Shown: piece by piece, positions 4,901 to 54,936 of the stretch
Layout of the letters: every line of letters begins with the position of its first letter
Numbering within the stretch: the stretch's first letter is position 1
NCBI GenBank assembly: GCA_028286915.1
Contig: JAQBQQ010000001.1
Location: forward strand, 1-54,936
Source: Candidatus Peribacteria bacterium
Lineage (GTDB): Bacteria; Patescibacteriota; Gracilibacteria; Peribacterales; Peribacteraceae
Length of the DNA: 54,936 nucleotides
Direction of reading: 5' to 3'
Program-made: the position numbers and the translations under genes
The notes under the pieces: model-generated
Databases searched by the model: none
What the model was told of the DNA's origin: nothing
What the model saw: only the letters and a program-made list of their open reading frames with translations

Positions 4901-6185
4901 CAACGATATCGAGGGTAACAGTCGTACCCTTCTTGATAACCAACGGAGTGCGGAAGCGCAGATCAGCCGTCTGGTTGTCAGAATCGATAGAACGCTTGCG
5001 GGACAAACGTGCGCCATCTACGGAAGCGTAGATACCGCTGATGTCACCTGAGTCACCAAAACCTTCGTGAAGGACGGTGAGGTTGTCGATTGTGACATCC
5101 TCTTCCTTGGAAGCGGTAACATCCATGGACATCATGGTTACACCGTTAGCAGCCTTAGGAACCGTGTCGGAGACAGGGTTCGTGGAAGCTACAGCGAGTT
5201 CGAGTGAACCATTGCTTGGAGCAACGTCACTGAAACCCTTGAAAGTTGCGCTACCGGAAATGGTGTCACCCTTTGCAGACAACACATTGCTCACGGACAC
5301 GGTGTAGCTGGTATCAGGAGTGAGATCCGTCTTTACGGTAAGCTGAACAACCTTAGGCTCAACGAGCTTGGCTGCAGTTACAGCAACTGCGACGCCGCCG
5401 TCCGTCTTTACCGTGAAGTTAGCTATGTCCTCAGCGCTGGTCTGATCCAGAGCTGCGTTGAACAACACTTCAACAGTTGTCGTGCTGGTAGCCGTAGCGC
5501 TTGAAACGCCGGCCTTTTCTGGAACCGTAGAACCAGACTGACAGTCAACACCGTAGGTGAGACCCTGGTCTACACGGTGAAGCATGACTACCATTTCTGC
5601 ACGGTTCATGTTGTCCGAAGGACGAACACGGCCCGTGGATCCGTCACCCTGGAGAACACAGGCGTCGGCTGCTGTTTGAATAGCATCCGTATACCACTGT
5701 CCACTTGGGTTATCGACGAACTGAGGAGCGTCGCCTGTTGCCGTAAGGGCGAAGGCGCGAACGATAAGAGCTGCTGCTTCAGCGCGATTGATATTAGCGG
5801 CTGGGCGAGCGTAGCAAGGATGGGAACCAACACAGTTGTTGTCACCCATGACCCACTTCTCTTTGGCTGCTTCCTCCATGTAACCGTAGTACCAGGCAGA
5901 AGCTTTGACATCGTCAAAGGTAGCTGCGGCTGGCGGAGTGGAGAGGATTCCACCATTGAGCTCAACGATGAGCTTAACGAACTCAGCGCGGTTGGCGGTT
6001 TCATTACCGCGGAACCGTGTCTGGTTGGCATCGAGATAGCCAGCGTCTGTGAAAGACTGCACGGCCTCTGCGTACCAAACCCCCGATGGAACATCCGAAT
6101 AAGCTGCAAACACGCTACCAATAGAGGACAGCGAAATTGCAACGGCGGATGCGCCGGCGAGGACTTTCTTAAAAGAAACGTCCAT
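1947..6185 (-). CDS. Giant SLH-domain S-layer protein
   Basis: Probable major surface-layer protein. Residues 1-27 form a signal peptide (MDVSFKKVLAGASAVAISLS...ASVFA type). Three SLH domains follow at about 28-80, 88-145 and 155-210; the NRAEFVKL, NRAEAAAL and NRAEMVVM helices are clear. SLH domains normally bind pyruvylated secondary wall polymer. Next comes an Ig-like segment (about 225-315, VEVLFNAALDQ...TPDTSYTVSV), then about 1,100 residues of Thr/Ser/Asn-rich beta-strand sequence that I cannot assign to named domains. Four cysteines (CTSNC and CLGGALC) lie near the C-terminal third. At 1412 residues it is long for an S-layer protein. No Shine-Dalgarno precedes the ATG. It is a single-gene unit with its own terminator and a long, structured upstream region. 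Confidence 0.9.
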   Translation of the reverse strand: MDVSFKKVLAGASAVAISLSSIGSVFAAYSDVPSGVWYAEAVQSFTDAGYLDANQTRFRGNETANRAEFVKLIVELNGGILSTPPAAATFDDVKASAWYYGYMEEAAKEKWVMGDNNCVGSHPCYARPAANINRAEAAALIVRAFALTATGDAPQFVDNPSGQWYTDAIQTAADACVLQGDGSTGRVRPSDNMNRAEMVVMLHRVDQGLTYGVDCQSGSTVPEKAGVSSATATSTTTVEVLFNAALDQTSAEDIANFTVKTDGGVAVAVTAAKLVEPKVVQLTVKTDLTPDTSYTVSVSNVLSAKGDTISGSATFKGFSDVAPSNGSLELAVASTNPVSDTVPKAANGVTMMSMDVTASKEEDVTIDNLTVLHEGFGDSGDISGIYASVDGARLSRKRSIDSDNQTADLRFRTPLVIKKGTTVTLDIVADFNSTAVTSSEHNLVVELPSDVSSNAKQVTGNFPLRGNTFKIAAITSGTITVTYRSVNPSQVSVGEKDRVLGRFEASANSIEDQTIYSMTVRQNGSTSDGDVGSLKIRRSDGTVVSNIVPAFVSDSATFVFDPPLTVKQGDKLTFDIVGDILGGAGKTAKLDFEETGDIFAVGSLYGYGVNGQLYGSQVSLSGTVSTVTIKAGEFTIGINGPVQSSYTRDARDVVLANVSFTSGKGDDVDIKKLFFAIEGETSTGAALSANNTSSYDNIHEVLDNVGIRNTKTGKSISATRLTDNGTYGQTAGVGTYQIYRIDDLIVKATDNNYAIRANFINNGAGNSPKGGDQFKVHICGEAQNSTTTAGVLQTNSNMCTFGGLITASSAYQMEIEGLSTGDPIGDVRPGGNISGNFQRIASATLTVAVKSTASTDTAVKNSKNVTLMRFEGRAGEAKDVLFTHASFKSASGSLNNGTNYALWADTDGDSKVDTVLESGQSPQGGVVSFSDIKNGGFVIPKEQTVLFEVHSDIASTITGDDLSIGFNVGTPSTTDSYIEAQELDTGSSLSGIKTNTQGCTSNCDITVTTVATENYLLVSQGDLFVSLDTTPLRNRQCLGGALCDEVLRLNFHAENEDIDVTDLQINSSGSTATSVDRLELYKVGAATPFATATVGACGNDDTVHSGNATVQTFCAQMESRQLIVPKGQDLDVLVRPRLKTDVEGAVQETLQFFISKETASSNNTGTGSIRGRGDQSSNNLTGNNGDATAAGEVFIGATSAGVNTKIAGNLNKTVLSKITSITNASPDANGTDVSSGTSDIARYKIAAAPNSNSKNGLNKVTLSGVIFNVNATNVTLSSFKFYNKATSSFKRDCTAVNAAGTTIVTASGSFLVRCDSFLVTTLAADQKVSTGIDQGTDAQFALEANIGATSTTSAVNVELKNFDSSANTTFGPGTTQSHFVWVDQDNASATTASFLWVEYPETTVKSTNYSNN

Positions 6186-11578: not shown

Positions 11579-14500
11579 ATGTCAGGTCATACCAACATTT
11601 CTTTCTGGCAACGCCTCACGATGCAAAAAGGATTCACACTTCTCGAGCTGCTGGTTTCGGTGGGCATTATCGGCGCACTGGCCAGCATCACCGTTGTTGC
11701 CATTGGTCCGCGCAAGATTCTCCTCGCCGCTCACGACCGTGAGCGGAGCCATCAGGCACTGGAACTGTCCAAAGCTCGCACGCAAAAACAGATTGATGCG
11801 AGCGACTGGGTGGACACTCCGCCGTTGCCGGATGGCCATGCCAATGCGGTACCAATTTGCGAGCCGGGCATGACACGCGACTCCAGCTGCATCAATTTGG
11901 ATTATTTGATTCCGGACTATCTGGCTGCGTTCAAAAAGGACAACGTGGAACCGTGCGGCTATCTTGGCTACGAAATTTTTAAGGAAAGCGGAAAAATTAT
12001 GATACTGCCGAAGTACCTGGGGAAAATGGCAGGCGATTCGGCAACGCGCACCTGTATAACAGATACGATTGCGCCGGAAATTACGAATGTTGTATCCGAT
12101 GCTGAAAATTTTGGTAATCCAAAAATTACCTGGGACACAGATGAACCCTCCACAACTCAAGTGGAATACGGGCTCACAACTTCTTACGGCAATGTGACGA
12201 CTCTTAAGGATTACGGCGATAATCTTGTTTCTGCTCATGAGGCAACGCTCGAAGGACTGCTTGGCTATACCCAATATCATTATCGGGTGAAATCACGGGA
12301 TAACGCCGGTAATTTGGGCCACTCCATAGATTATACTTTTACAACCACTGATACGACTCCTCCGGTTATAACAGCAGTTGTCTCAAATTCTATCACCGAT
12401 GGCGGCGCCACATTCACGTGGACAACGGATGAACCTTCCCGTTCCCAGGTTGAATACTGGGTTGAGTTTTTCCCTCACGATTATTTTCCATCGAGCCCCA
12501 CTCAGATTCTGACAATAGACCATACGGTAACTGTTACGGGGCTTTTACCGGATACCGCGTATTCATTTAACGTGGGTTCACGTGATGCAAAATCAAACTT
12601 CAGCAAATCAGCTGATTTTCCTTTCCGCACGTTGCCGGATATTACGCCACCTTCCATCTCTGCCATTACGACATCCAATATTACCTCTTCGGATGTCACC
12701 GTTTCGTGGAAGACAAATGAAGCTTCCACCACGCGCATTGAGTACGGCACCACTACTGCCTATGATACCCCTACCACATTGAGCGGCGCCAAAGTTACCA
12801 CGCACAGCCAGGTGATAACCGGCCTGCAGGCGGAAACACTGTACCACTACCGCGTAAAATCCATGGACGCATCCGGCAATGAGGCGGTATCCGACGACCA
12901 GACCGTCTACGTTCACGATGTCACTACGCCGACTTTGAGCCCGATTGCCATCAATAATAATACCGGTACCAGCGCCCTCCTTACCTGGACGACCGGCGAA
13001 AACAGCAACACGCAGCTGGAATACGGCACTACCACCAGCTACGGAACCACCACCACACTGGTATCCACACCGACTCTAAACCACAGCGTGCAGCTGACAA
13101 ATTTAACCCAGAACACGCTGTACTATATTCGCGCCAAATCGTATGACGCTGCCAGCAATATGGGGACCATGACCGGCAGCTTTACCAGTACGAATTTGAG
13201 CCCGGTGCTCTCCGGCATAAGCGTGACACCTACGGCCTATAATAGCGCATTCACCTGGACGACCAATAAATTTGCCGATACACAGCTGGAATACGGCACC
13301 ACGACAAGTTATGGAACGATTCCAGGGAATCTTTCCACGCTGGTTAAAACGCCACACAGTATTACCGCTCCAAGCCTGAGTGCCAATACGCTGTATTACT
13401 ACAAAATTTCATCCAAAGATGCCAATAACTATACCGGCATCTCTACCGGTACTTTTACAACATCCCCGGCACCGGCCCAAAGTCTGGTGGCTCAATGGAC
13501 ATTTGATGAAGCGACCGGCACCACGGCAGCCGATGGAACTGGTAATGGTAATACAGCCACACATACCAGCGGGCCGACGAGCTCAGCGGTGGTTGCACCT
13601 ATTGGCGCAACGAACACGAACAGCCGATTATATAATGGCAGTAACTATACAACGACGCCTAACCTTCGTAAGTACTTTGCCGATGAATCGGTAACTATTT
13701 CGGCCTGGTTTTACCCGACTGCCGGCGGCGTGATTATTTCTGAAACAGGCGACAATACCGCCGGCAGCAATGTCTGGCATAACAGCCAGATAGAAGTGCT
13801 TGGCACCGGACAGGTAAAAGTGAGTGTCTATGCATTGACGGCCATTTCTGTTGGCAACGTCAGCTTTAACACCTGGAACCATGTAGCAGTGCGCTACCTT
13901 AAGACGGGAGCCACTACCGGACAGCTCTCGGGCTTCCTGAATGGCGTGAAGGCAACAACTGTCATAAGTGGTGACCGCCAGGCGCCATGGGAAAGTAATA
14001 ATACACTATACTACGGAATTGGCCGGGCAGACGGTACCCATATGGGAGACGGCACCGGCTTTAACGGGAATATTGATGAAGTGCACATTTTTAACTACGC
14101 CCGGTCGGATGCCGAAATACAGGCCGAGGCGGCAAATGCAACCTTTGATACAACTCCGCCAACGCTTTCCAATGTGCGGCTGTTAAATAATTATGGTACC
14201 AGTATTTCTCTTGTCTGGGATGCCAGCGAACCGGTAACAACGCAGCGCATTGCGTATGGCATTGGTAATTACAATACGTTTACCACGACAGGAACAACGC
14301 TCAATACCCTCGGCCTCAGCCAGACAATCTCCAACCCTGCCCTTACACCCGGCACAGTCTACCAATACAGACTGGAATCCAAAGACGGCGCCAAGAATCT
14401 GGGAACCCTTATCGGAACATTCACTACCGCCGCGGATACGTTCGGCGCTACATTTACCGGCCCAAGCGGCGCTCCAACGGCATCTGGAGGTATTCTTACC

Positions 14501-16927
14501 TGGACGACCAACGAACCTGCCAACACTCAGGTGGAGTACGGTACTTCAACGCTCTACGGTACATCATCGCCTCTTATAAATACTCTTACATATTCACACA
14601 CAGTGGTATTACAGGGGCTCAACCCCGGAACTCAATACAATTTTCGCGTAAAAGCAATGGATGCCAACGGTAATCCCAGCGTATCCGGTAACGCCGTCTT
14701 TACACCCGACAATACGCCGCCGGTCATCACCAATGTGGTGCCCACCATGATTAACAGTACCACTGCAAATATTTCCTGGACTACAACCGGCGATACATCC
14801 AACAGTATTGTGGACTACGGCACCACTGTCTCCTATGGCTCATCACCAAGTAATGCTGCCAATGTCACAAACCACAGTCTGAATATTACGGTTGTAACAA
14901 ACCAGACGTATCATTTCCGCGTACGATCCAGAGATATTGCCGGCAACACGGGAACATCTTCTGACTATTCCTTTATAGCGGATTTTACGGCGCCCACTCT
15001 TACAGCCGGGCCAACCGTCACATCCACCGACGGTGTCCACGCAACTATAACCTGGACCACCAATGAAGTATCCGACACTCAAATGGATTACGGTGCGACG
15101 ACAGGCTATGGAACACCTTCCACGCTGAATACCACCATGGTGACATCGCACAGCGTGGTACTCTCCAGCCTGAGTGCCAATACCCTGTATCACTTCCGCG
15201 TAAAGTCGCGTGACCCGACTGGGAACCTGTTTACCTCCGGCGACTATACGTTTACCACCGTGGATACAACGCCGCCGATTCTCTCGGCGCGTACCGCTAC
15301 CGTAACCAGTGATACCAGCGCCACTATTTCGTGGACGACACAGGAAGATTCCACGACTCAGGTAGAGTATGGACCAACGTCTGCATACGGGAACCAGACA
15401 AGCCTGGACACGACGCTTGCACCAAACCATAGCCAAAACCTTACCGGGCTGATGCCGAATACCACCTACCATTTTCATGTAAAATCACGCGATGCCGCCG
15501 GAAATACGTCTACGTCTCCCGATGAAACATTCACCACGACAGATACCACCGGCCCGACGATTTCCAATATGACAGCCCATACCATTACCGATGTCCGTGC
15601 CACCATTTCCTGGACGACATCCGAGGCGGCAGGCACGGTTGTGGATTACGGTACCTCTACAAGTTACGGCCTCACGGCCAGCACCACAGAAAGCGCGACG
15701 TCACACTCACAGCTCCTCACAGGGCTTGCGCCAAACAACACCTACTATTACCGCGTTCGAAGTACCGACAGCGCAGGCAATGAAACCATTGCGCCCGGTG
15801 ATTCCTTCAGCACACTTCTGGATGTGACGCCGCCGGTTATTTCGGGCGTGGCTTCCTCTGCCATTACCGAAAGCAGCGCCGTTATTTCCTGGACCACCAA
15901 CGAAGGGGCGGACGGGCAGATCGATTACGGCACCACTACAAGCTATGGCAGCCAGACGACACTCAGCGGCGCCATGACATTGTCGCATCAACAGTCTTTG
16001 GGCGGGCTCAGCGTGAATACGCTCTACCACTACCGTGTCCGTTCACGCGATTCACATAACAATCTTTCCGTCTCTGCGGATGCCACTATTACCACTGTCG
16101 ATACCACTGCCCCGGTTATTAGTGCCGTGGCTTCCGCTGTGCCAAACGACACAACCGCCACCATTACCTGGACGACCAATGAAGTAAGCAACAGCCAGGT
16201 TGAGTACGGTACCACAACCAGCTACGGAACGTATGGCACCATCAATGCCAGTATGGTGACGAACCACAACCAGAGCCTTACGGGTCTTGCGCCCAATACC
16301 AAATATTACTACAACGTGAAATCACGCGACCCGGCCGGTTTCCTTACGACATCGGCAGGCTTTCTCTTTATTACCGACGTCACGCCGCCGGTTTTAATAA
16401 ACATCGCATCCGGCACCCTTACCACAAACAGCGCCACTATTACCTGGTCTACCGATGAGCCGGCCGACAGCGTGGTGGAATACGGTACCAGCGCCGGCAG
16501 CTACCCCAACACTTCCACGCCTAACAGCACGTTGTCTATTACCAAGACTCACCTGCTGTCCGGCCTGGCAAACAACACCACGTATTACTACCGCGTGAAA
16601 TCCCATGATGAAGCCGGCAACCTGGCTACGTCCGCGGAAAAAACCTTCTCCACAGATGTCACGCCGCCGACAATCTCGGCCGCCAGTGCAACCCCCGATT
16701 CCGCAACCGCCACTATTACGTGGACCACCAATGAAGTTGCCGGTACCAGTGTGGATTACGGCACGGCCGGCTATACGCAAAATGCCGCCACCGCCGGCAA
16801 CAGTACACTGCACACGCAAACTCTTAGCGGTCTTACGCCTGCCACCCCGTACATGTACAGAATAACGACCACGGACCCGGCCGGAAATACGTCGACCTCC
16901 ACCGGAACATTTACGACGAATCCGTAA
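11579..16927 (+). CDS. Giant prepilin-like surface protein with FN3 repeats and a LamG domain
   Basis: Probable cell-surface adhesin assembled or anchored through a type IV pilin-like stem. Residues 1-18 form a prepilin leader ending in Gly, then FTLLELLVSVGIIGALASI with Glu at mature position 5. A globular module with four cysteines (about 93-167; PIC, CINLD, CGYLGY, RTC) is shared with two other proteins in this window. Fifteen fibronectin-III-like repeats follow, each with a WTTNE...VEYGTTTSYG signature: five before and ten after a LamG/concanavalin-like domain at about 634-855 (WTFDEATG, VTISAWFYP, WNHVAVRY, NIDEVHIFNYA). ATG 11579 gives an 18-residue leader; ATG 11621 is an alternative. 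The AAGGAG before the ATG may lie upstream of the transcript start. Confidence 0.9.
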   Translation: MSGHTNISFWQRLTMQKGFTLLELLVSVGIIGALASITVVAIGPRKILLAAHDRERSHQALELSKARTQKQIDASDWVDTPPLPDGHANAVPICEPGMTRDSSCINLDYLIPDYLAAFKKDNVEPCGYLGYEIFKESGKIMILPKYLGKMAGDSATRTCITDTIAPEITNVVSDAENFGNPKITWDTDEPSTTQVEYGLTTSYGNVTTLKDYGDNLVSAHEATLEGLLGYTQYHYRVKSRDNAGNLGHSIDYTFTTTDTTPPVITAVVSNSITDGGATFTWTTDEPSRSQVEYWVEFFPHDYFPSSPTQILTIDHTVTVTGLLPDTAYSFNVGSRDAKSNFSKSADFPFRTLPDITPPSISAITTSNITSSDVTVSWKTNEASTTRIEYGTTTAYDTPTTLSGAKVTTHSQVITGLQAETLYHYRVKSMDASGNEAVSDDQTVYVHDVTTPTLSPIAINNNTGTSALLTWTTGENSNTQLEYGTTTSYGTTTTLVSTPTLNHSVQLTNLTQNTLYYIRAKSYDAASNMGTMTGSFTSTNLSPVLSGISVTPTAYNSAFTWTTNKFADTQLEYGTTTSYGTIPGNLSTLVKTPHSITAPSLSANTLYYYKISSKDANNYTGISTGTFTTSPAPAQSLVAQWTFDEATGTTAADGTGNGNTATHTSGPTSSAVVAPIGATNTNSRLYNGSNYTTTPNLRKYFADESVTISAWFYPTAGGVIISETGDNTAGSNVWHNSQIEVLGTGQVKVSVYALTAISVGNVSFNTWNHVAVRYLKTGATTGQLSGFLNGVKATTVISGDRQAPWESNNTLYYGIGRADGTHMGDGTGFNGNIDEVHIFNYARSDAEIQAEAANATFDTTPPTLSNVRLLNNYGTSISLVWDASEPVTTQRIAYGIGNYNTFTTTGTTLNTLGLSQTISNPALTPGTVYQYRLESKDGAKNLGTLIGTFTTAADTFGATFTGPSGAPTASGGILTWTTNEPANTQVEYGTSTLYGTSSPLINTLTYSHTVVLQGLNPGTQYNFRVKAMDANGNPSVSGNAVFTPDNTPPVITNVVPTMINSTTANISWTTTGDTSNSIVDYGTTVSYGSSPSNAANVTNHSLNITVVTNQTYHFRVRSRDIAGNTGTSSDYSFIADFTAPTLTAGPTVTSTDGVHATITWTTNEVSDTQMDYGATTGYGTPSTLNTTMVTSHSVVLSSLSANTLYHFRVKSRDPTGNLFTSGDYTFTTVDTTPPILSARTATVTSDTSATISWTTQEDSTTQVEYGPTSAYGNQTSLDTTLAPNHSQNLTGLMPNTTYHFHVKSRDAAGNTSTSPDETFTTTDTTGPTISNMTAHTITDVRATISWTTSEAAGTVVDYGTSTSYGLTASTTESATSHSQLLTGLAPNNTYYYRVRSTDSAGNETIAPGDSFSTLLDVTPPVISGVASSAITESSAVISWTTNEGADGQIDYGTTTSYGSQTTLSGAMTLSHQQSLGGLSVNTLYHYRVRSRDSHNNLSVSADATITTVDTTAPVISAVASAVPNDTTATITWTTNEVSNSQVEYGTTTSYGTYGTINASMVTNHNQSLTGLAPNTKYYYNVKSRDPAGFLTTSAGFLFITDVTPPVLINIASGTLTTNSATITWSTDEPADSVVEYGTSAGSYPNTSTPNSTLSITKTHLLSGLANNTTYYYRVKSHDEAGNLATSAEKTFSTDVTPPTISAASATPDSATATITWTTNEVAGTSVDYGTAGYTQNAATAGNSTLHTQTLSGLTPATPYMYRITTTDPAGNTSTSTGTFTTNP

Positions 16928-20145: not shown

Positions 20146-20168
20146 CGGAAAGGGTACAAGCGAAGCAA

Positions 20169-20240
20169 GGGGTACAGGAGAAACAGGGGATTTAAGGGAA
20201 TCAAAGTAATCCCCTGTTTCCCTTGTTTCCCCTGTACCCC
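20169..20240. repeat. Nested inverted repeat of GTACAGG/AAACAGGGG words
   Basis: AAACAGGGGAT (20181-20191) pairs exactly with 20209-20219, and a 16-bp arm (20169-20184) pairs with 20225-20240 with one mismatch; further CCCCTGTACC-type units continue to about 20262. It lies between the convergent pgl and yraN stops, where it could terminate both. Confidence 0.65.
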
Positions 20241-20259
20241 CTGTACCCCTTATACCCCT

Positions 20260-29088: not shown

Positions 29089-32000
29089 TTAAGGAGTCCT
29101 TTCGGTCAAGGAAGCTTTGCATGTTCCAGTATTATCGCTATATGCAGTATCGGGAAAGCTTACAACAAGTTTTGTAGCACCTGCAGGAACATGTATTTGA
29201 GGTCCGTCATACCAATCTTTTAATCTTATTGCTTGATGTTTTCCAGGAGTAGAAAGATTAAGAGTTGATAAAATATCAATTACATTTCCATTAGCATCTA
29301 AAAATTGTGCAATAGCTATGAGTTTTGGATATGTATTACTCGGGTTAGATCCATTCTGGCAGGAAACAGGGTTTGGGTCACCGTTACTATTGCCACCCCA
29401 ATTAATACTTCCCTTTACGTAGGAGAGCTCAATAACATTGTTCGGTGTAACAGGATTGGTAAACACGTTCTTAGGGCCGGATGTACTGCCGCCGCCAGCC
29501 GGGTAACCCCACTCGGAGAATTTACACTTGGGACAGGCATATGAAGGCCGTGTCTGGCCAGAGAAAGTTACAATCGCTGTTTGGACTACCTTTGGACTTG
29601 TATCTACATCATCATCGCCAACGGTAATGGACATGGGCGGTATGCCGGACATCACATTGTAATTAGGGTCCGTACTTGTTGTCTCATGGGCAATGGTAAT
29701 GGTTTTCTGGGGCTCTACCACGGAGTCATTCACTGCTCCTATGACAACGAAATGATCCTGGTTCCAGGTAGCCGGAGTAATGGTTATCATGGCAGCCGGG
29801 AAAATTACCTGACCGGCTGCGGCACCCGCTCTATCAATATACACGTTCACATCGTCTGTTGGCTGTGTCTGCAGCCGGATGCTGTAGGCATCTTTTACCT
29901 CGTTGGCTGCATCACCTTCCACAACGTAGTTACTGCCATCCGGGCCGCCGCCGATTTGGAATGGAGTAAGGACCACGCCTGGAAAATCGTTATCAAAAAT
30001 AGATACGAGAACCGTGGGCATGGTGCCAAGGTTGGCGGACGTATAGTTGGGGTCCGTACTGGCAATGCCATGGTACATAGTATCCGTATACGGACTGACA
30101 GCCTCTTTAACGGCGTTGTCTATAACCGTTACTGTCACACGCTGTGGCACATTCCAGTTTTGCGACGTGAATGTGAGCAATGACGGACTAAAATTCACCT
30201 TGCCGTACTGCGATGCAATAGAGAACTGCACATCGGCCGTTGGCTGGCTCGAAAGAGTGACATTATAGAAATCAACTCCGCCCGGGCCGGATGGATTGGA
30301 ATAGAACGTACCACCGCCTTCGTAAAGCTGCGTAATGCCATCGCTCTGGTCTATAAGAACACCGGGGACATCGTTATCACCAATACCTACGGACACACCC
30401 GCGGGCGTGAGACTGCCGTACTTAGCATCGGTTGTGGTGACAGTATGAATAATGGCGCTGTAGTGGTTCCCCTCGGCAATATCATCGTCTTTGGCGTTGA
30501 CGCAGAACGAAGTAGTGGGGCCGTTTATGGCGTTCCAGTTGGTGGCGTCCAGCGTAATGGACGTGCGGGAGAAGTTCAGTTTGGCCGTAGGGTTACTGGT
30601 TGTTACCGTTACCGGCTGATCCGGCACGGTGTTGAGCGTAATACTGTAGCAGTCTGTACCCTGCACGCTGGCGCCCTGGGTGAGCTTGGAAATATCGCCG
30701 CCTTCCAGGACCGTTGTGCTGCCGTCGCTCTGCGTAAGAGTGAAGCCGGCAACGTCGTTATCCGTAATGCTGACATTCACGTTAGCCGCAGTCTGCGTAC
30801 TGTAAACGGGATCAGTTGTTGTGACGCTGTGAATAATGTTAGCCGTGTGCACACCTTCATCCTTAAAGTCATTGATGGCACTGGCGCACACGTAATGAGC
30901 GGCGCTTTGGGCGCTCCAGTCGGTTGAGGTAAGCGTGACGGATGACTTGGAAAAGTTTAAATGCGAATCCGGGTTGGATACGTTCACGGTGACATCCTTC
31001 GTTGGAGCCGTATTCAGCGTGACATAGTAACAATCCGAACCCTGCAGAGTAGCTCCTGCCGTGAACTTGGTAATATCGCCGCCTTCCTGCACTTTGGTGG
31101 TACCTTCCGTCTCGGTCATAATAATACCCGGCGTGGGCGTAACGGTACCGGTGACGGTGAAATCAAACGGACTGCGCGGCGCGTCATTACTGGTAATGTG
31201 CACCGGACCGCTAAAGCTGCCAATAGCGGCTGCGGTAAGGCGGATGACAAAACCGGTAGACGCACCCGGAGCAAGGTTTACGGTAGCCGACCACGGGCTC
31301 ACTATCTGGTAGCCGTTCGGTACGGAAATATTCTGGTTTAAGGCAAGCGTATCATCGCCCAGGTTTTTGACTGTGAACGTATGCGTTTTCGGCACGCCAA
31401 TACTGGTGGTGCCAAAGTTCACCGTGCTGCTGCCGCCTGTGAGCACGGTTGTGGACGTATCATCCGTTACCTGTATAAGCGGAGCGGCCGAGTTTCCCGT
31501 AATGTTAAAACTGCATGGCGATTCGTTGGCGTCATTGTTGCCTATAATAATGCGGTCTGTCCGGTCTGTGCCGTTGGCGCTAAAACGGGCGATGAATTGC
31601 TTTACGTCACCCGGCTGCATAACCGCGTTGCCAAATGCAGAGGAGAACGAAAAGTCTGTACCGCTAAGGAAACCAAGCGTGCTGAGACGCAAGGCGTAGA
31701 CGCCCGAGTTCTTAATGAAGAACGTGTGGTCGACGGCATTGCCAATCGGCGTGGGGCCAAAGTCCACTGCCGGGCTGACACCTGCCGTACAGCTGAGCAG
31801 ATTACCCGCAATAACCGAGTCTTTATAGACATCTATTTCCGGAGCTTTTGCTGGGTCGCTGGATGCCTGGATGATAAAGTTGTACGGGTTTTTGGCGCCT
31901 GGCACATTGGTAGTGAACCGCAGCGGACCGGACTGGAAATTTGGAGAAGAGGCATTCCAGCGAATGATAAATGTTGCCGGAGGATCTCCTGCGAGGATAG

Positions 32001-35000
32001 ACGTGGGAGTAATAGGTTGGACTATGGAAAAACCGACAGGGACGGTAAGACTGCTGATGTCCAGCTTTGCCTGTCCGGTATTTACAATGGTAAACGTACG
32101 GGTAATGGTAACGCCCGCATTGGAGTAACCGAAATCATAGGGGAGCACACTGCCATCGGGAATTGCCGGTACGCCATCAATGGGGTCGCCGTACACTTCT
32201 ATGTCCGGTGCCGGTGCCGGTGTCACTGCCCCCTTCACGGTAAAGTCGTACGGGTTTTTACTGCTGACATTCGTACTAAAGCTGAGCTTGCCGTTATACG
32301 TGCCGGCTGTAACGGAATCCATTTTTATAACCAGCGTCGTGGATGTTCCCGGTACAAGACCGCTTGTCGTCGCTGCTGCACTAAAGCCTGTGACCACGCT
32401 AAAGCCGGCCGGCAACGTTGGCGTTCCCAGAATAAGATTACCGGAACCGACGTTCTTAACGGTGATAGTACGCTGCGGCGGTGTAGCCGTACCGGCCGTG
32501 ACGGAACCGAAATCAATGGAACCTGTCTGCATGGGTATGTCCGTACCTCCAATTGAAACGGCAACATCCGGATCATTATCCATAATTTTTACACTGATAG
32601 ACGGCACAACGATGCCGGTATAATTGGCATCCGATGTTGTGAGATCATAGGCAATGGCGCCGTAGTTCGTGCCTTCAAAAATGCTGTCATCGGTGGCCGT
32701 AATAGTAACAACCTGCGGTGCGGACCAGTTGGCCGGCGTAAAGGTAAGCACATTCTGAGACAGCGAGAACTGGCTGGCCGGCGTGCGCGTGGGCGTAAGC
32801 ACTACGTTGGAAGCGGGTTTGGCGTTAAGGCTTATGGAATAGGTCGTATATGCCGTGGGTGTACCGGCTTCGTATGCCGTCCGTGACGTGGTATTCACTA
32901 AAACACCGGCCGTATCGTTGTCGGCAATGGTAACGGTAACGGTTGGCGCAATGAGTATGCTGTACTTAAAATCACTGCTGCCGATGGCGTGAATAATATG
33001 TTCCGTCTGCGTGCCTTCTATATTCTGATCATCAATCGCCGTTACGGTAACTGTCTGCGGCGTGTTCCAGTTGGCACTTGTAAATGTAAGTGCTGCCGGC
33101 GACACGCTGGTCTGGCCTTCCGGCGTCGGTGTTACTGTTACCGGCGATGCGGGGAACGGCTGCGAATTTAATTTTACCGTGTACGTTTTTGTCGTGCCGC
33201 CTTCGGACATGGAAAGCGTGACAGGCGTAATGGCAAGACCGGCCGTATCATTATCATGGATATCCACGGCAATATTGCCGGTCGGAACACCGTTGTAGTT
33301 CGTATCGGTACTGCTGAGCGTATGAGCAATGCGGTCGGTAACAGGATCAATGTCATCGGTACTGTTATCACGTGCCACAATGCTGACTGTCTGCGGCGTA
33401 TTCCAGTTGGCCGGCGTAAACGTATGCACGGACGTGAGCGTGGGGTCCACGCAGTTTTTGCCGTCCACCTGCATGGCCAGGGTATTGCAGTCCAGCCGTA
33501 CATCCACATTGGCAGTCGGCGGCGTGCGCAGAACAATGGTGTAAGAATCCGGAGCGCCGCCTTCGGTCACATTGGCCGTCGCCTTATTCAGCGTAATGCC
33601 GTATGAATCATTATCCGTAATAGTCGCCGTCACATTCGCTGCCGGAACCAGGCTAAAGAACGGATCGGCGCTGGTAACGGTGTGCGTAAGTGTGGCCGAA
33701 TGCACGCCTTCCACCAGCAAGTCATCCACGGCACTTACGTTCACAATCTGCGGAATATTCCAGCCCGCTGCCGGGAATGTTAATGTCTGCACGTCTGTAT
33801 TCAGCTGGGTGGATGACCCGATGGTCACGGTGACAGGCGCGGAAGGGCGGCTGCCAAGCTGCACGGTGTAGGCGTCTTTGGTACCGCTTTCAGTTACGCT
33901 CACCGTCGTCTTATCAAACAGCAGGCCGGCAAAATCGTTATCGGTAATATTGGCAATAACATTGCTGTCGACAACGCCGTTCCAAAGCGTGTCACCACTG
34001 CCGTATGAATGGCGGATAATACCGGCATGGTTTCCTTCCACGCTATCGTCATCCACGGCCGTGACGGTAATAGTCTTATTGGCGGACCAAATATTGGCAC
34101 CCGATGGGCTAAACGTAATCTGGGAAGGGTTCACCGTTGTCTGTCCGTCCGGCGTGCGGATATTAAAGGTAACAGTCCCGACGGGCGCCTCGGACAGACG
34201 CACCTGGTACGTGTCGCTGGTGGCATTCTGCTCAGCCACATTCACGGGTACATTTGTGAAAATCAGTCCCTTGTCATTATCCGTCACGCTCACGCTTACC
34301 GGTGGAATGACTTTATTCTGGTAGTGCGCATCCGTGCTGGTAGCGGCAAAACGGATATAGTCGGTCATGGGTCCTTCTGCCACGGTATCATCAACGGCAG
34401 TGACAGTGACGATCTGATACGTACTCCACATGTCTGCTCCTGACGGATTGAATGTCAGCGTAGCCGGCGAGAAGGAAAGACGGCTACCCGAAGAAGCCAT
34501 GGCAATAGTCACCGGACCGGTCGGCTCGGAATTCAATTTAAGCTGTATCCTGTCTGTTGTGCCACCCTCGGTTACAGCCGTAACGCCATCAATGGTGGCA
34601 TTACCCGCCGCCGCAATCTCCTGGACGCTCACGCCGGCTACGTCATCATCGTTAATAGTCATAACATATGAACCGCTCAAGGTAAGATACTTCGGGTCCG
34701 CCGTGGCAGTTACCACGTTACGCATTACGCCGGGGTACTGATCCGGCTTGTCTATAAAATCGGCTACGGCACGCAGCTGGACTGTCTGATCGCTTTGCCA
34801 GTTTGCAGTACTGAATGTGAGTGTTCCGCCTGCAGGCGCACTGCGTACCAGCTGGCTGTCCGGCGTGACCGTGAGGGTAACCGGCGCAACCGGCTGGGAA
34901 CGAAGATGCACGGTATAGGATGTATCGCCATCAGCTTCATTGCGCGTTGAACTCGTGGGAGCCAGCACCAGGCCGGCCGTGTCGTTATCCGTAATGTTTG

Positions 35001-37569
35001 CCGTAACACCGGCAATGCCCGTAAGTGTCTTGTAGGCCGCATCAGCGGTACTGGCACTGTTGATAGAATGCGCAATAACAGACGTATGCTGATCCGCTTC
35101 ATCCACTGCATCATCTACCACTGTAACAGTTACTGTTTGCGACGCATTCCAGTTGGAATTGGAAAATGTAAGAGTAGCCGGGGAGACAGTCACGCCGGTT
35201 GCCGTATTCAACGATTGCACATTGACCACAACCGTTCCGGTAGGACGGCTGTTTAATGCGAGAGTGTAGGTCTTTTGCACGGCAGGCGTTGCCTCGGACA
35301 GAGCAACTGCGGACGTACTGACATTTACGCCGATGGCATCGTTATCAGTAATACTGGCGGTCACCAGGGGGGCGTCTGTCCAGCTCTTAGGCCCGCTTGC
35401 CTCTATGGCAGTAATCGTACTTGTGTGTGTGGGTGCCTCCGTATAGCTATCATCAATAGCGCGGACATTCACTGTTTGCGGGTTATTCCAGTTAGATGAG
35501 TTAAAAACCAATTGTCGGGTAAAAATATTCTGCAACGCAGAATCCAGCGAAAGCTGCTGTCCCAACGGCCCGGATGCATCAACTGCCACATCCACTTTTA
35601 CATTTCCCGTCGGCTGCCTGGACAACTTGAGCCCGTAAGAATCTGTTACTGTTCCGTCTTCCGACGCGGTAAGAGCTGTGCCGGATGCAACAATGCCATA
35701 CTCATCATCAATAATATTCACCGTGACAGGGTTTATCACCAGACCGGCGCTTGTTTGATAGTACAAATCCGCGCTTGTCGCCGTATGTGTGATGGTTCCG
35801 GTACGGCTTCCGTCCACCACGGTGTTATTGACGGCTGCCACCGTGACTGTCTGCGGTATGTTCCAGTTTGCCGCGGTGAACACCAGTGGCAACGGCGGCG
35901 TGGCCGCTACCGTCAACTGCGCATCCGGCGTGACCGTTACCGTTACAGCTGCACGCGGCTGGGTATTTAAGACAACGGTATAGGTGTCTGTGGCACCGCC
36001 CTCCGTTACAGTGGTAGCACCACCGCTTTCAACAATGGTGGTACCGGCAACATCGTTATCGGTCATGCTGGAATTCACAGGCAGCGTTACCCCTACGAAT
36101 TGCACGTCACTGCTCGGAGAAACACTCAAGGTCGTTACTCCGATATGCGGTGAACCTTCGGCAATCTGGTCATCCACAGCTGTAACAATAACCGGCTGAG
36201 GAACATTCCAGTTAAGAGACGTAAACACTAATGATACTTTATCGGTTGTCACCTGTGGATCATTGGCGATAGCAACGTAAACCGGCAATGCGGGCTTCCC
36301 CTGCAGGGCAACATTCATTGTCCAGCTGTGGTTTCCACCCGCTGCTTCCGTAATGGTATTCGGCCCGCCGGTGACGACGAATTGAGCCGCATCATTATCG
36401 GTAATATGCACATTCACAGCCGGTCCGGTGACACCCAAAAATTGCGTGTCTGCCGTGGTAACGGCATGTGTTACGGGCTTTGTTTGTGTCCCTTCTATAT
36501 TCACATCATCCACCGCCGTCACTGTGACCGTCTGCGGAATATTCCACGTATTATAATCAAATACCAGTGGCGTGACACCAGAAGACAGTGTTAATTGAGT
36601 AATATCCGTAGCAGGAGTAACACTAACCGGTAACTTTGGCCGGCCGCCAAGCTGCACCGCATATGTGTCGGTAGTGCCGCCTTCCGTCACGTCCGTTGAG
36701 TTATTTGATTCCTTTATGACAATAGTAGCGGAATCGTTATCTGTAATGGCAACGGCTGTAGCTGTTACTGCCTTGCCGTTATAACTTGCGTCCGAGCTTG
36801 TGACCGCATACGCAATAGAACTGGTGTGCGGCCCTTCAATGTCCGGGTCATCAATAGCGGTTACCGTTATTGTCTGGAAAATACCCCAGTTCTGCGGTGT
36901 GAATGTAAGCTTCGGCTTGTCGGTAATAATCTGGCTGCTTGGAACACTGGCCGGTGTAACCGTAATAGTAACAGGCGATGCAGGAGCCTTGGCGAGCCGG
37001 AACAGAATGGTATCCGTAACACCGCCTTCGGTTACCTGCGTGTTGCCGCCGCTCTGCGATACATCCACGCCCTGCACTGCAACATAGCCGCACTTTGGGT
37101 CCGAAGGCGCGGGGCTCAGCCTGCCAAGATGCGTGGGAAAAACATCGGCAACAGTAGGGCTGATAAGATACACGCTGTACCCCATCCATTGCGGACAGCT
37201 TTCGTACGGATCTTTTCCGGTACCACCGAAACGCTTGGAATCAATATCGACCGGAATACAATAATCATCACTCTGTCCCTTTACGCAAATTGGTAATGCG
37301 TTTTCTTTCCCCGTGTTCAACCGCTCTTGTCCGTACAATGTCCGCGTTTCATTGAAGTGTTCCGTAAATGTGTTTCTCAAAAAGTCCGCGTTATTCTTGC
37401 GGACGGCATCATATGTATTCTTATATTGCAGACTTGGGTTAATGGCCACAATTGTCATGGCGGCAATGACACTAATAGCAGCCATAACCGTGACCATTTC
37501 AATACTGGTAAAACCGTGCCGCCAGGCGGTGTGTGTGTTCTTCATACGAAGTGGGGTATAGGTGTGCAT
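29089..37569 (-). CDS. Giant prepilin-like surface protein with Calx-beta repeats
   Basis: At 2826 residues the largest gene here. Residues 1-19 are a prepilin leader ending in Gly; mature FTSIEMVTVMAAISVIAAMTIV follows with Glu at position 5. The shared four-cysteine module (PIC, CIPVD, CPQWMGYSVY, KC) spans about 93-162. About 17 Calx-beta-like repeats follow, each with VTEGG...NWN.PQTVTVTAVDD...EG and an ITDND-type end; family members bind calcium. The repeats are interrupted at about 1665-2145 by four ASH/choice-of-anchor-like domains (FGSVTAG, FGYSNAG, FGPTPIG, FGTTSIG). The C-terminal about 170 residues (VPAGATKLVVSFPDTAYSDN) resemble galactose-binding or PA-IL-like lectin domains. ATG 37569 lies 11 bp after a TATAAT box. 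Confidence 0.9.
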   Translation of the reverse strand: MHTYTPLRMKNTHTAWRHGFTSIEMVTVMAAISVIAAMTIVAINPSLQYKNTYDAVRKNNADFLRNTFTEHFNETRTLYGQERLNTGKENALPICVKGQSDDYCIPVDIDSKRFGGTGKDPYESCPQWMGYSVYLISPTVADVFPTHLGRLSPAPSDPKCGYVAVQGVDVSQSGGNTQVTEGGVTDTILFRLAKAPASPVTITVTPASVPSSQIITDKPKLTFTPQNWGIFQTITVTAIDDPDIEGPHTSSIAYAVTSSDASYNGKAVTATAVAITDNDSATIVIKESNNSTDVTEGGTTDTYAVQLGGRPKLPVSVTPATDITQLTLSSGVTPLVFDYNTWNIPQTVTVTAVDDVNIEGTQTKPVTHAVTTADTQFLGVTGPAVNVHITDNDAAQFVVTGGPNTITEAAGGNHSWTMNVALQGKPALPVYVAIANDPQVTTDKVSLVFTSLNWNVPQPVIVTAVDDQIAEGSPHIGVTTLSVSPSSDVQFVGVTLPVNSSMTDNDVAGTTIVESGGATTVTEGGATDTYTVVLNTQPRAAVTVTVTPDAQLTVAATPPLPLVFTAANWNIPQTVTVAAVNNTVVDGSRTGTITHTATSADLYYQTSAGLVINPVTVNIIDDEYGIVASGTALTASEDGTVTDSYGLKLSRQPTGNVKVDVAVDASGPLGQQLSLDSALQNIFTRQLVFNSSNWNNPQTVNVRAIDDSYTEAPTHTSTITAIEASGPKSWTDAPLVTASITDNDAIGVNVSTSAVALSEATPAVQKTYTLALNSRPTGTVVVNVQSLNTATGVTVSPATLTFSNSNWNASQTVTVTVVDDAVDEADQHTSVIAHSINSASTADAAYKTLTGIAGVTANITDNDTAGLVLAPTSSTRNEADGDTSYTVHLRSQPVAPVTLTVTPDSQLVRSAPAGGTLTFSTANWQSDQTVQLRAVADFIDKPDQYPGVMRNVVTATADPKYLTLSGSYVMTINDDDVAGVSVQEIAAAGNATIDGVTAVTEGGTTDRIQLKLNSEPTGPVTIAMASSGSRLSFSPATLTFNPSGADMWSTYQIVTVTAVDDTVAEGPMTDYIRFAATSTDAHYQNKVIPPVSVSVTDNDKGLIFTNVPVNVAEQNATSDTYQVRLSEAPVGTVTFNIRTPDGQTTVNPSQITFSPSGANIWSANKTITVTAVDDDSVEGNHAGIIRHSYGSGDTLWNGVVDSNVIANITDNDFAGLLFDKTTVSVTESGTKDAYTVQLGSRPSAPVTVTIGSSTQLNTDVQTLTFPAAGWNIPQIVNVSAVDDLLVEGVHSATLTHTVTSADPFFSLVPAANVTATITDNDSYGITLNKATANVTEGGAPDSYTIVLRTPPTANVDVRLDCNTLAMQVDGKNCVDPTLTSVHTFTPANWNTPQTVSIVARDNSTDDIDPVTDRIAHTLSSTDTNYNGVPTGNIAVDIHDNDTAGLAITPVTLSMSEGGTTKTYTVKLNSQPFPASPVTVTPTPEGQTSVSPAALTFTSANWNTPQTVTVTAIDDQNIEGTQTEHIIHAIGSSDFKYSILIAPTVTVTIADNDTAGVLVNTTSRTAYEAGTPTAYTTYSISLNAKPASNVVLTPTRTPASQFSLSQNVLTFTPANWSAPQVVTITATDDSIFEGTNYGAIAYDLTTSDANYTGIVVPSISVKIMDNDPDVAVSIGGTDIPMQTGSIDFGSVTAGTATPPQRTITVKNVGSGNLILGTPTLPAGFSVVTGFSAAATTSGLVPGTSTTLVIKMDSVTAGTYNGKLSFSTNVSSKNPYDFTVKGAVTPAPAPDIEVYGDPIDGVPAIPDGSVLPYDFGYSNAGVTITRTFTIVNTGQAKLDISSLTVPVGFSIVQPITPTSILAGDPPATFIIRWNASSPNFQSGPLRFTTNVPGAKNPYNFIIQASSDPAKAPEIDVYKDSVIAGNLLSCTAGVSPAVDFGPTPIGNAVDHTFFIKNSGVYALRLSTLGFLSGTDFSFSSAFGNAVMQPGDVKQFIARFSANGTDRTDRIIIGNNDANESPCSFNITGNSAAPLIQVTDDTSTTVLTGGSSTVNFGTTSIGVPKTHTFTVKNLGDDTLALNQNISVPNGYQIVSPWSATVNLAPGASTGFVIRLTAAAIGSFSGPVHITSNDAPRSPFDFTVTGTVTPTPGIIMTETEGTTKVQEGGDITKFTAGATLQGSDCYYVTLNTAPTKDVTVNVSNPDSHLNFSKSSVTLTSTDWSAQSAAHYVCASAINDFKDEGVHTANIIHSVTTTDPVYSTQTAANVNVSITDNDVAGFTLTQSDGSTTVLEGGDISKLTQGASVQGTDCYSITLNTVPDQPVTVTTSNPTAKLNFSRTSITLDATNWNAINGPTTSFCVNAKDDDIAEGNHYSAIIHTVTTTDAKYGSLTPAGVSVGIGDNDVPGVLIDQSDGITQLYEGGGTFYSNPSGPGGVDFYNVTLSSQPTADVQFSIASQYGKVNFSPSLLTFTSQNWNVPQRVTVTVIDNAVKEAVSPYTDTMYHGIASTDPNYTSANLGTMPTVLVSIFDNDFPGVVLTPFQIGGGPDGSNYVVEGDAANEVKDAYSIRLQTQPTDDVNVYIDRAGAAAGQVIFPAAMITITPATWNQDHFVVIGAVNDSVVEPQKTITIAHETTSTDPNYNVMSGIPPMSITVGDDDVDTSPKVVQTAIVTFSGQTRPSYACPKCKFSEWGYPAGGGSTSGPKNVFTNPVTPNNVIELSYVKGSINWGGNSNGDPNPVSCQNGSNPSNTYPKLIAIAQFLDANGNVIDILSTLNLSTPGKHQAIRLKDWYDGPQIHVPAGATKLVVSFPDTAYSDNTGTCKASLTERTP

Positions 37570-51197: not shown

Positions 51198-52028
51198 TTA
51201 TCCCAAAACCTGTACTGCCTCTTTATATCCTTCCGGCGTGCCGGTATCCAGACGGTGCCCCTCGAATACATATCCATAGACATGCATAGTACCAAGCTCC
51301 GCAATGAGCGCATCAATCAGGCGCACTTCACCGCCATGAGAACCTTTTTCCAGCGTCTGGAGTATGCGGAAAAGATTGCGCGGAATAATATACTTGCCCA
51401 CGATGCCAAACGTACTGGGCGCATGTTCGGGCTTTGGCTTTTCCACCATTCCCTTTATTTTCTTTAACCGCTCATGGTGCTGTGGATGATCAAAATCTAT
51501 ATCCACAATTCCATACTTGCTGACAGCTTCCCTGGGTACGTCCTGCAGACAAAGCATGGCCGGCTTTTCACCTTCCGGCAGATGATCGTAGGCCGCCACG
51601 AGTTGCTGCAAACCGTTCTGTTTACCATGAATAAGGTCATCGCCAAACAGTACCGCTACCATATCGCTCTTAATCCAGTCTGCGGCATGCAATAACGCAT
51701 GGCCATCGCCCTTCATCTCTTGCTGGTACACCACATGAAACTTCACGTTATCGTAACGCTTTAAATCCTCCAGCATATGCAGCTTGCCCCGGCTGTCCAG
51801 CTCCGCCTCCAGCTCCGGCATTTCATAGAAGTACTGGGGAATAGCTTCCTTGCCGCGACTAATGACGAAGCAGATATCATCAATACCCACCGACAGACAC
51901 TCATCCACCAGAAGCCCGATGATGGGCTTGTTTCCAATGGGCAATAGTTCCTTCGGTACAACCTTGGTCCACGGCAGGAACCGCGTGCCCAGACCGGCAA
52001 CGGGCAAAATGGCTTGAGTAACTTTCAT
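51198..52028 (-). CDS. galU: UTP-glucose-1-phosphate uridylyltransferase
   Basis: Makes UDP-glucose for envelope glycans. 276 residues. Nucleotide-binding N-terminus AGLGTRFLPWTKVVPKELLP (residues about 11-30), NKPIIGLLVDECL, FVISRGKEAIPQYF, the metal-binding Asp in VLFGDDLI, and the VEKP segment typical of GalU. C-terminal RLIDALIAEL and the GTPEGYKEAV ending are also conserved. Start ATG 52028 just after an AT-rich stretch (TATAAAATATTTT); no Shine-Dalgarno. Likely supplies the glycosyltransferase and wall polymer pathways implied by the SLH proteins. Confidence 0.95.
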   Translation of the reverse strand: MKVTQAILPVAGLGTRFLPWTKVVPKELLPIGNKPIIGLLVDECLSVGIDDICFVISRGKEAIPQYFYEMPELEAELDSRGKLHMLEDLKRYDNVKFHVVYQQEMKGDGHALLHAADWIKSDMVAVLFGDDLIHGKQNGLQQLVAAYDHLPEGEKPAMLCLQDVPREAVSKYGIVDIDFDHPQHHERLKKIKGMVEKPKPEHAPSTFGIVGKYIIPRNLFRILQTLEKGSHGGEVRLIDALIAELGTMHVYGYVFEGHRLDTGTPEGYKEAVQVLG

Positions 52029-52363
52029 AAAATTGGGAATAGGAAAATATTTTATACTAGTTTGTGATAAAAAGAACAGATATCAACCGCGTCGCATACT
52101 TCCTCCTCTCGTGCGCCGTAGCAGGATCGTCGCTATAGAGTATGGGATACTACATAACAGATACATTGATAGGAGATCGCGAAGGCGTATTAGCGATCAA
52201 AATGTAAATGTCACCTTATAGTAGACGGAAATGGCAGGGAATCTTACAAAACAGGGACGCGTTAGCTCGTTGGTTTGTTGGTTCGTTTATGGTTATTCGT
52301 TTCTACTATTTCTCCTGACAAAAATTAGATACTATCTTCAATGCATACTTTCCCCTTGTAATC
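52029..52363. other. 335-bp spacer with repeat copy A
   Basis: Holds the galU promoter region, a GATCGC/GCGATC pair (about 52176-52199) and the left copy of a 65-bp direct repeat. No frame over 25 codons looks real. Confidence 0.5.
52238..52302 (+). repeat. 65-bp direct repeat, copy A
   Basis: Runs from GGGAATCTTACAAAACAGGG to GGTTATTCGTTT. It matches copy B at 62 of 65 positions by hand count. Copy B starts exactly 710 bp later, so the two copies bracket the lipoprotein gene. Confidence 0.85.
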
Positions 52364-52915
52364 ATGAGTGCGCAGCGCTTGTCCATACTTAGCATCTCTT
52401 TACTATTATTTACCGCCTGCAGCTCATCTAACACCGTACCGACAGCTTCCACTACAGAACCAGCCGTAAAAACAGTAGCTAAAAATACGCCGCAGCAGAT
52501 ACAAGATTGCGGAAAAGCAGAATATGGTGGGTCACCCAGCAGTCTTACAGCAAAGGACAATCAGGCCATTGCATGTCTCTCCGAAGCCTTTAAGTCCTGT
52601 ACGCCCGCAGTGCTGGAGTACAAGCAGTACCATCCCATGTCTTACAAAGTCTTGGGGGCAAAGGATGGGGATTGCCTGCTATCGCTTCACCTGCCCGAAG
52701 AGACTAGAAGTCAACCACGTTACCAGAACAAGCCTGCCGACCAGACCTGTGCCATCAGTCAATCAAAGATCGACAAGCTTGTCCACGATTCCAATTTCGC
52801 ATCGCTCTCTCAAAAAGGACAAGATTTTACACTGTTCTTTCTGATCGCTACAGCTTTGGAGTTCCCTGGCTCAAGCACGCAGTCCAGCTCCCAATTCGAC
52901 TGTAGGCCTGTATAA
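52364..52915 (+). CDS. Lipoprotein, unknown, between direct repeats
   Basis: 183 residues. Lipoprotein signal MSAQRLSILSISLLLFTACS with lipobox FTAC (Cys19). A Thr/Ser/Ala-rich stretch precedes a body with five further cysteines (DCGKA, IACLS, KSCTP, GDCLL, QTCAI) and a final one in FDCRPV, suggesting disulphides. No known domain recognised. It sits inside a 65-bp direct repeat pair, so it may be a mobile or duplicated cassette. Confidence 0.8.
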   Translation: MSAQRLSILSISLLLFTACSSSNTVPTASTTEPAVKTVAKNTPQQIQDCGKAEYGGSPSSLTAKDNQAIACLSEAFKSCTPAVLEYKQYHPMSYKVLGAKDGDCLLSLHLPEETRSQPRYQNKPADQTCAISQSKIDKLVHDSNFASLSQKGQDFTLFFLIATALEFPGSSTQSSSQFDCRPV

Positions 52916-52947
52916 ACAACGCAAATGATCTAACCGGCCGGTTAAGG

Positions 52948-53012
52948 GGAATTTTACAAAACAGGGACGCGTTAGCTCGTTGCTTTGTTGGTTCGTTTAT
53001 GGTTAGTCGTTT
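52948..53012 (+). repeat. 65-bp direct repeat, copy B
   Basis: Second copy of the repeat at 52238-52302, same orientation, three mismatches. A looser relative (GTTTGTTCGTTTATGGTT) occurs at about 54869-54886. Confidence 0.85.
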
Positions 53013-53068: not shown

Positions 53069-53551
53069 TTACCCTTCCTGGATTCTGACTATCTTTATCT
53101 TCTCTTCTTTGGGGACAAGAATTTTGAGGACGCAATCTTTATTAAAAGTAGCTTTCACTTTGCGCGGATCTATACTGCAGGGGAGCGTGACGCTGCGGCT
53201 GAATGAACCCCAATAACATTCGCGGAGGTAATAGCTGTTTTCCGGAATAGTATCTGCCTGTTTTCGCGTTCCGCGGATAGTGAGAACGTTGTCGTTCACT
53301 TCTATGTCCAGGTCCGAAAGACGGACACCGGCAATAGGCGCCTTGATAATGTAGTAATCATCCTGCTCGTAAATATCCACCGCTACGCGACCGGGCGTTG
53401 CATTGGCATTCGTGGAAGGCACCTGGCTTTGTGGCTCCATAGATGCAGGGGGAGTGTTGGCAGCAGGCGTTTCATCGAACGAAAAAATAGGTTTCCCTTC
53501 CTCGTGATCACGAAGAGATGAAAAGATGCCGTGGAAAGGGGAAGCACTCAT
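53069..53551 (-). CDS. Small heat-shock protein (Hsp20/alpha-crystallin)
   Basis: ATP-independent holdase chaperone, 160 residues. A Pro/Ser/Ala-rich N-terminal arm (1-55) precedes the alpha-crystallin domain: VAVDIYEQDDYYIIKAPIAGV, DLDIEVNDNVLTIRG, YLRECYWGSFSRSVTLP and the A-x-x-x-(N/G)-G-like AT-FNKDCVLKILVPK segment near the end. The C-terminus KIKIVRIQEG contains the I-x-I type motif for oligomer contacts. Start ATG 53551. Single gene. Confidence 0.93.
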   Translation of the reverse strand: MSASPFHGIFSSLRDHEEGKPIFSFDETPAANTPPASMEPQSQVPSTNANATPGRVAVDIYEQDDYYIIKAPIAGVRLSDLDIEVNDNVLTIRGTRKQADTIPENSYYLRECYWGSFSRSVTLPCSIDPRKVKATFNKDCVLKILVPKEEKIKIVRIQEG

Positions 53552-54822: not shown

Positions 54823-54936
54823 TAGGTAGGTATTAGTGTCTGATTGTGGATTTCGTTTATTAGTTTATCGTTTGTTCGTTTATGGTTCAGTCGCTGAACC
54901 TGACAATTGATAAGTACCCATTTTTATGATTGGTTC

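Follow-up and report, generated by a model that had tools for sequence, protein, structure and literature searches.

A spacer repeat, probably copied locally, on both sides of a predicted orphan lipoprotein gene at the galU–hsp20 position of a Candidatus Peribacteria genome

Two 66-bp direct repeats (R1 and R2) that enclose a predicted lipoprotein gene in a Candidatus Peribacteria genome are probably local copies of a mostly ordinary spacer repeat that now flank an orphan gene gained at this position, i.e., by-products of its history rather than the machinery of a mobile cassette. The window, meaning the whole stretch of DNA that was analysed, has a length of 54,936 nt. It belongs to a genome (G000) of 1.43 Mb in 48 contigs. 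The features relevant to the repeats are as follows.

51198–52028, minus strand: galU-like nucleotidyl transferase, left neighbour (PF00483, E 5e-24)
52237–52302, plus strand: R1, spacer of the divergent galU and lipoprotein genes, 63/66 identical to R2
52237–52256, plus strand: private part of R1, found elsewhere in the genome at R2 only (BLAST sensitivity)
52257–52302, plus strand: dispersed part of R1, overlapping a genome-wide GTTN/GTTTAT word family
52364–52915, plus strand: predicted orphan lipoprotein gene, 183 aa, 7 Cys, no family, in 1 of 353 class genomes
52947–53012, plus strand: R2, spacer of the convergent lipoprotein and hsp20 genes, 63/66 identical to R1
53069–53551, minus strand: hsp20, small heat shock protein, right neighbour (PF00011, E 1.5e-17)
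54870–54936, plus strand: further GTT-word stretch, continuous with a dispersed core element of 64 nt and truncated at the contig end

The starts of R1 and R2 are 710 bp apart. The sequence-only reading had given them as 65-bp direct repeats at this distance, and in that frame they do match at 62 of 65 positions; extended to 66 nt, three mismatches are present, and a gapped alignment lengthens the match merely by a one-base gap plus 'CTA'. A search of the genome with the repeat returned the pair with E values of 7e-29 and 1e-24, the next-best place scoring 8e-8. Alignment of the flanks outside R1 and R2 found no likeness. No exact 23-mer match to the private part was detected in the genome_contigs or viral_contigs collections, from which the genome's own records were possibly left out.

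The single gene enclosed by the repeats is that at 52364–52915. Tandem duplication of gene and repeat was rejected: the sequence left of R1 contains no vestige of a second lipoprotein gene and is unlike that left of R2, scoring below the shuffled mean. Consistent with the earlier reading, a Pfam scan revealed no transposase among 32 of the 33 window ORFs of at least 110 aa, a 2827-aa ORF at 29089–37569 having been left out. A repeat length of 66 bp far exceeds that of the usual target duplications and, together with the lack of a transposase among the scanned ORFs, sets this arrangement apart from transposons and insertion sequences.

With R1 as the query, 54 matches were found in the genome by BLAST. 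None of the 52 other than R1 and R2 starts before query position 21. The first 20 bases are thus exclusive to the pair, and each repeat copy is a composite of these 20 bases and, in its 3′ two thirds, dispersed GTTN/GTTTAT words. A check proposed with the sequence-only reading, whether the repeat also flanks other genes, placed the private part at R1 and R2 only, and at BLAST sensitivity it stands beside no other gene of the genome. Gene context was inspected for 34 of the 54 matches, R1 and R2 included, the other 20 being repeats of listed places or belonging to an array at the end of contig C30. Among the 32 places besides R1 and R2, 24 are gene spacers (16 between tandem, 4 between divergent and 4 between convergent genes), while seven lie inside an ORF, as called by a crude caller, and one is at a contig edge. 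The 3′ part is thus present at spacers regardless of any cassette structure, an outcome that had been named as contrary to a cassette, but this does not extend to the first 20 bases.

The dispersed GTT-word family occupies many spacers of G000 and is missing from most relatives. GTTYGTTTATNGTT has 34 occurrences in G000, where its reversed control has none, and a combined total of 3 in 29 other genomes. Five GTTs in a row at four-base steps are found in six of the 74 order genomes; in G000 the reversed control of this pattern matches 55 times too, and GTTG arrays, which are the same read backwards, likely lie behind these matches. In the parts available of the literature on spacer repeats in Peregrinibacteria or Patescibacteria, on heptamer repeats, on flanked cassettes, and on word dialects and palindromes, no description of the repeat element was found.

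A conserved core of about 64 nt around CCTGACAATTGATAGTTGGCCATTTTTATGATC is present at window positions 54885–54936 and at eight other places in G000 (among loci L117–L125), and at several of these it has arrays of GTT and AAC words beside it. Arrays consisting purely of GTTG or of GTTC/GTTG occur in G000 at the start of contig C30 and in contig C17 (at its start and at 34190–34240); these are probably where the assembly broke.

Many GTT-word places are accompanied by an AAC-rich partner arm (at least five AAC in 40 nt, within 120 nt), seen at 20 of the 34 places and in none of 2000 random window pieces. R1 and R2, unlike many of the others, are not good hairpins themselves. The partner-arm search counted no AAC words for R1, which has no arm downstream, and three for R2, which has a weak one, and the whole-spacer folds gave z scores of 0.58 (R1) and 0.13 (R2), the latter value giving no support to R2 as a terminator hairpin. 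Nor was insertion into a former GTT hairpin, composed of R1 and the R2 right flank, supported: when the R1 arm and that flank are joined to reconstruct the hypothetical empty site, the product folds barely better than shuffled sequence (z −1.15).

The enclosed gene had been described as encoding a cysteine-rich lipoprotein. Its predicted 183-aa product has seven cysteines and a lipobox-like LFTAC, part of LLLFTAC at residues 13–19 (read by eye from the translation). Searches of Pfam, NCBIfam and PDB sequences gave no family at the cut-off. At E 0.001, its own was the only one of the 353 class genomes in which the protein was detected. At E 0.01, two of the 74 genomes of the order had matches, its own and G066 (E 0.0097), the latter rejected as a homologue because the matching sequence carries five stops. 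Seven further weak matches (E 0.01–0.2) to the central part of the protein were not accepted as relatives. No paralogue was detected in its own genome, and no relatives in genome_contigs, viral contigs, plasmids or phages. A single-sequence AlphaFold2 model (mean pLDDT 68.5, pTM 0.58) was compared with the PDB and viral fold libraries and matched nothing at E ≤0.001. These searches show the predicted lipoprotein to be an orphan at the sensitivity used, and it may alternatively be a fast-evolving relative that was missed by them. Its codon score (0.00) is below those of all 28 window training ORFs (lowest 0.053, in-sample), although its frame has the top codon score of the six; low expression could also explain the low score.

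The two flanking genes, the left of which we take to be galU, neighbour each other in many genomes of the same family too, and the content of the galU–hsp20 slot was compared across the order (74 genomes, in which G000 is the sole member of its genus). This slot comparison is new in this analysis. In relatives, the resident gene of the slot is small (about 84–137 aa), is encoded on the strand opposite to galU and hsp20, and specifies a protein in which a YMGGEDVL motif recurs and the tail is often basic; its alignment (A1) matched no Pfam family. A nine-row profile detected the resident gene in 50 of the 74 genomes, including weak matches in G003 (E 0.002) and G041 (E 2e-4), and gave no match in G000. 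Survival of the resident gene elsewhere in G000 and homology of the lipoprotein to it were both rejected on this result. In the fetched loci, hsp20 adjoins the resident gene in 30 of 30, and galU is within the fetched stretch in 24 of 30.

What these gene contents show is a replacement, with the lipoprotein gene standing where most relatives keep an unrelated small gene. Given a resident gene that 50 of the 74 genomes have and G000 lacks, and a lipoprotein detected in only 1 of 353, one gene appears to have been gained and another lost. In G073, 18 bp are all that lies at the slot, with no gene, so the resident gene can go without any replacement. Other genes, identified with a crude ORF caller, are in or beside the slot in G056, G038, G069, G052, G053 and G003. 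Among the direct repeats of at least 24 nt found in these six loci and that of G014, none brackets the inserted genes. Judged from these sequence comparisons, gain of the orphan gene and loss of the resident one at the slot are well supported.

In the most probable course of events, an orphan lipoprotein gene would have taken the galU–hsp20 position and the resident small gene would have been lost. One 66-bp spacer sequence would have been copied locally, and would now stand in both spacers of the new gene. The copying could date from the insertion of the gene, with recombination or repair having duplicated one end, or could be a later duplication or conversion that involved the two adjacent spacers. 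The outside origin of the gene, the succession of events and the way in which the spacer was copied are what we infer. The 20 private bases common to R1 and R2 show that one repeat derives from the other, and local duplication, repair at insertion and single-crossover insertion could each be sufficient for this.

It is doubtful, if conceivable, that the gene forms a repeat-bounded cassette, in which a linear or circular piece with the lipoprotein gene plus one repeat would have integrated at a resident copy through a single crossover, and could be excised again by recombination between the copies. The repeat–gene–repeat geometry, the presence of the private 20 nt in both copies and the position of an orphan gene at a conserved slot are all as expected of such an element, but no mobile relative was seen among viral contigs, plasmids and phages, the slot genes of relatives are without bracketing repeats, and the joined R1 arm and R2 right flank restore no convincing element. 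The earlier proposal of a cassette gained or lost by recombination between the repeats holds for gain or loss at the slot, given the distributions of the resident and lipoprotein genes, but not for the repeats as its cause: a repeat-driven role is not supported because the 3′ motif is dispersed without a cassette, the relatives are unbracketed, and the private part is at no other gene. The private 20 nt do show a copying event between both sites, which keeps the cassette idea alive, and repeat-mediated insertion is possible.

A second account, which we regard as quite unlikely, is that two independent members of the GTT-word family flank one gene by chance and were made alike by gene conversion. 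It draws on the 54 matches in the genome, on the 24 of 32 other places that are gene spacers, and on the low-complexity elements in the same spacers of relatives. The first 20 bases, however, occur in no other member, and conversion would have to span the whole repeat length. The private 20 nt speak for a single, specific copying event involving exactly these two sites, for which a purely dispersed motif does not account. An assembly artefact is extremely improbable: contigs C30 and C17 of G000 end in GTT arrays, but R1 and R2 differ at three positions and lie at least 1.9 kb from the contig end, and galU and hsp20 are also neighbours in relatives. Local copying of a spacer repeat around an acquired gene is the preferred reading.

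Non-homologous gene displacement at a conserved slot is a known concept, and the present case resembles it in having an unrelated gene at a conserved position but differs in the duplicated spacer on both sides. REP/REPIN sequences often occur as inverted pairs. The uptake words of Neisseriaceae are often paired as hairpins at gene ends and are fixed and very numerous, whereas the words of G000 are degenerate and few. The two share a restriction to particular lineages, the DNA uptake sequence dialects of Neisseriaceae being described as lineage-specific words in PMC3630211. According to PMC3116915, REP/REPIN sequences are short, intergenic and present in many copies per genome, as is the GTT-word family. 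The latter has degenerate 4- and 6-base words in place of a fixed palindrome. Heptamer spacer repeats of the TAACTGA type, reported from Cyanobacteria, Beggiatoaceae and Bacteroidetes in PMC4679880, are likewise short words placed head to tail in the spacers of some lineages only; those of G000 differ in being tetramer-based and of another word, with an inverse-complement arm at 20 of the 34 places.

The slot spacers of relatives also carry word-built elements. Among the 30 loci (L063–L092), 29 allowed the resident gene's end to be located, L092 being the exception. In 13 of these, the spacer before hsp20 was shorter than 25 nt and was left unfolded, and of the 16 spacers of at least 25 nt, 15 fold at a z score of −2 or lower (the exception, L083, has −0.6). 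The hairpin arms in these spacers consist of low-complexity short words that differ among genomes. AAGATRCAAGATRCAA was found in 15 of the 74 order genomes, G000 not among them; G038 and G039 match the control as well. These look like genome-specific vocabularies for spacer elements. It is very unlikely, though worth stating, that the hairpins and word stretches in gene-end spacers of this bacterial family, built from genome-specific words (GTTN here, CAAGATA in others), serve as homology for recombination by which entire genes enter and leave conserved slots, in which case R1 and R2 would be a fresh trace of one.

Repeats of other kinds were also observed. Locus L093 (contig C19) has a pair of 181-nt direct repeats (2404–2584 and 5232–5412, 83% alike, 2828 apart) that brackets two unlike genes (596 and 195 aa). 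In the window, a 44-nt inverted repeat of another word type (CCCCTGTA/CCCTTGTTT; 20149–20251, 75% complementary) lies between a 6-phosphogluconolactonase-like gene and a UPF0102 gene. Two very long window genes have internal repeats, at 11579–16927, with many fibronectin-like domains, and at 29089–37569.

At the galU–hsp20 locus, a bacterial lineage with small genomes appears to have exchanged one gene for another where gene content is otherwise conserved, and the locus offers a site for testing what part private spacer repeats have in gene turnover. The genome-specific, word-built hairpins at one orthologous gene boundary are maybe the better question, as they raise that of how one genome writes like spacer elements everywhere in its own vocabulary.
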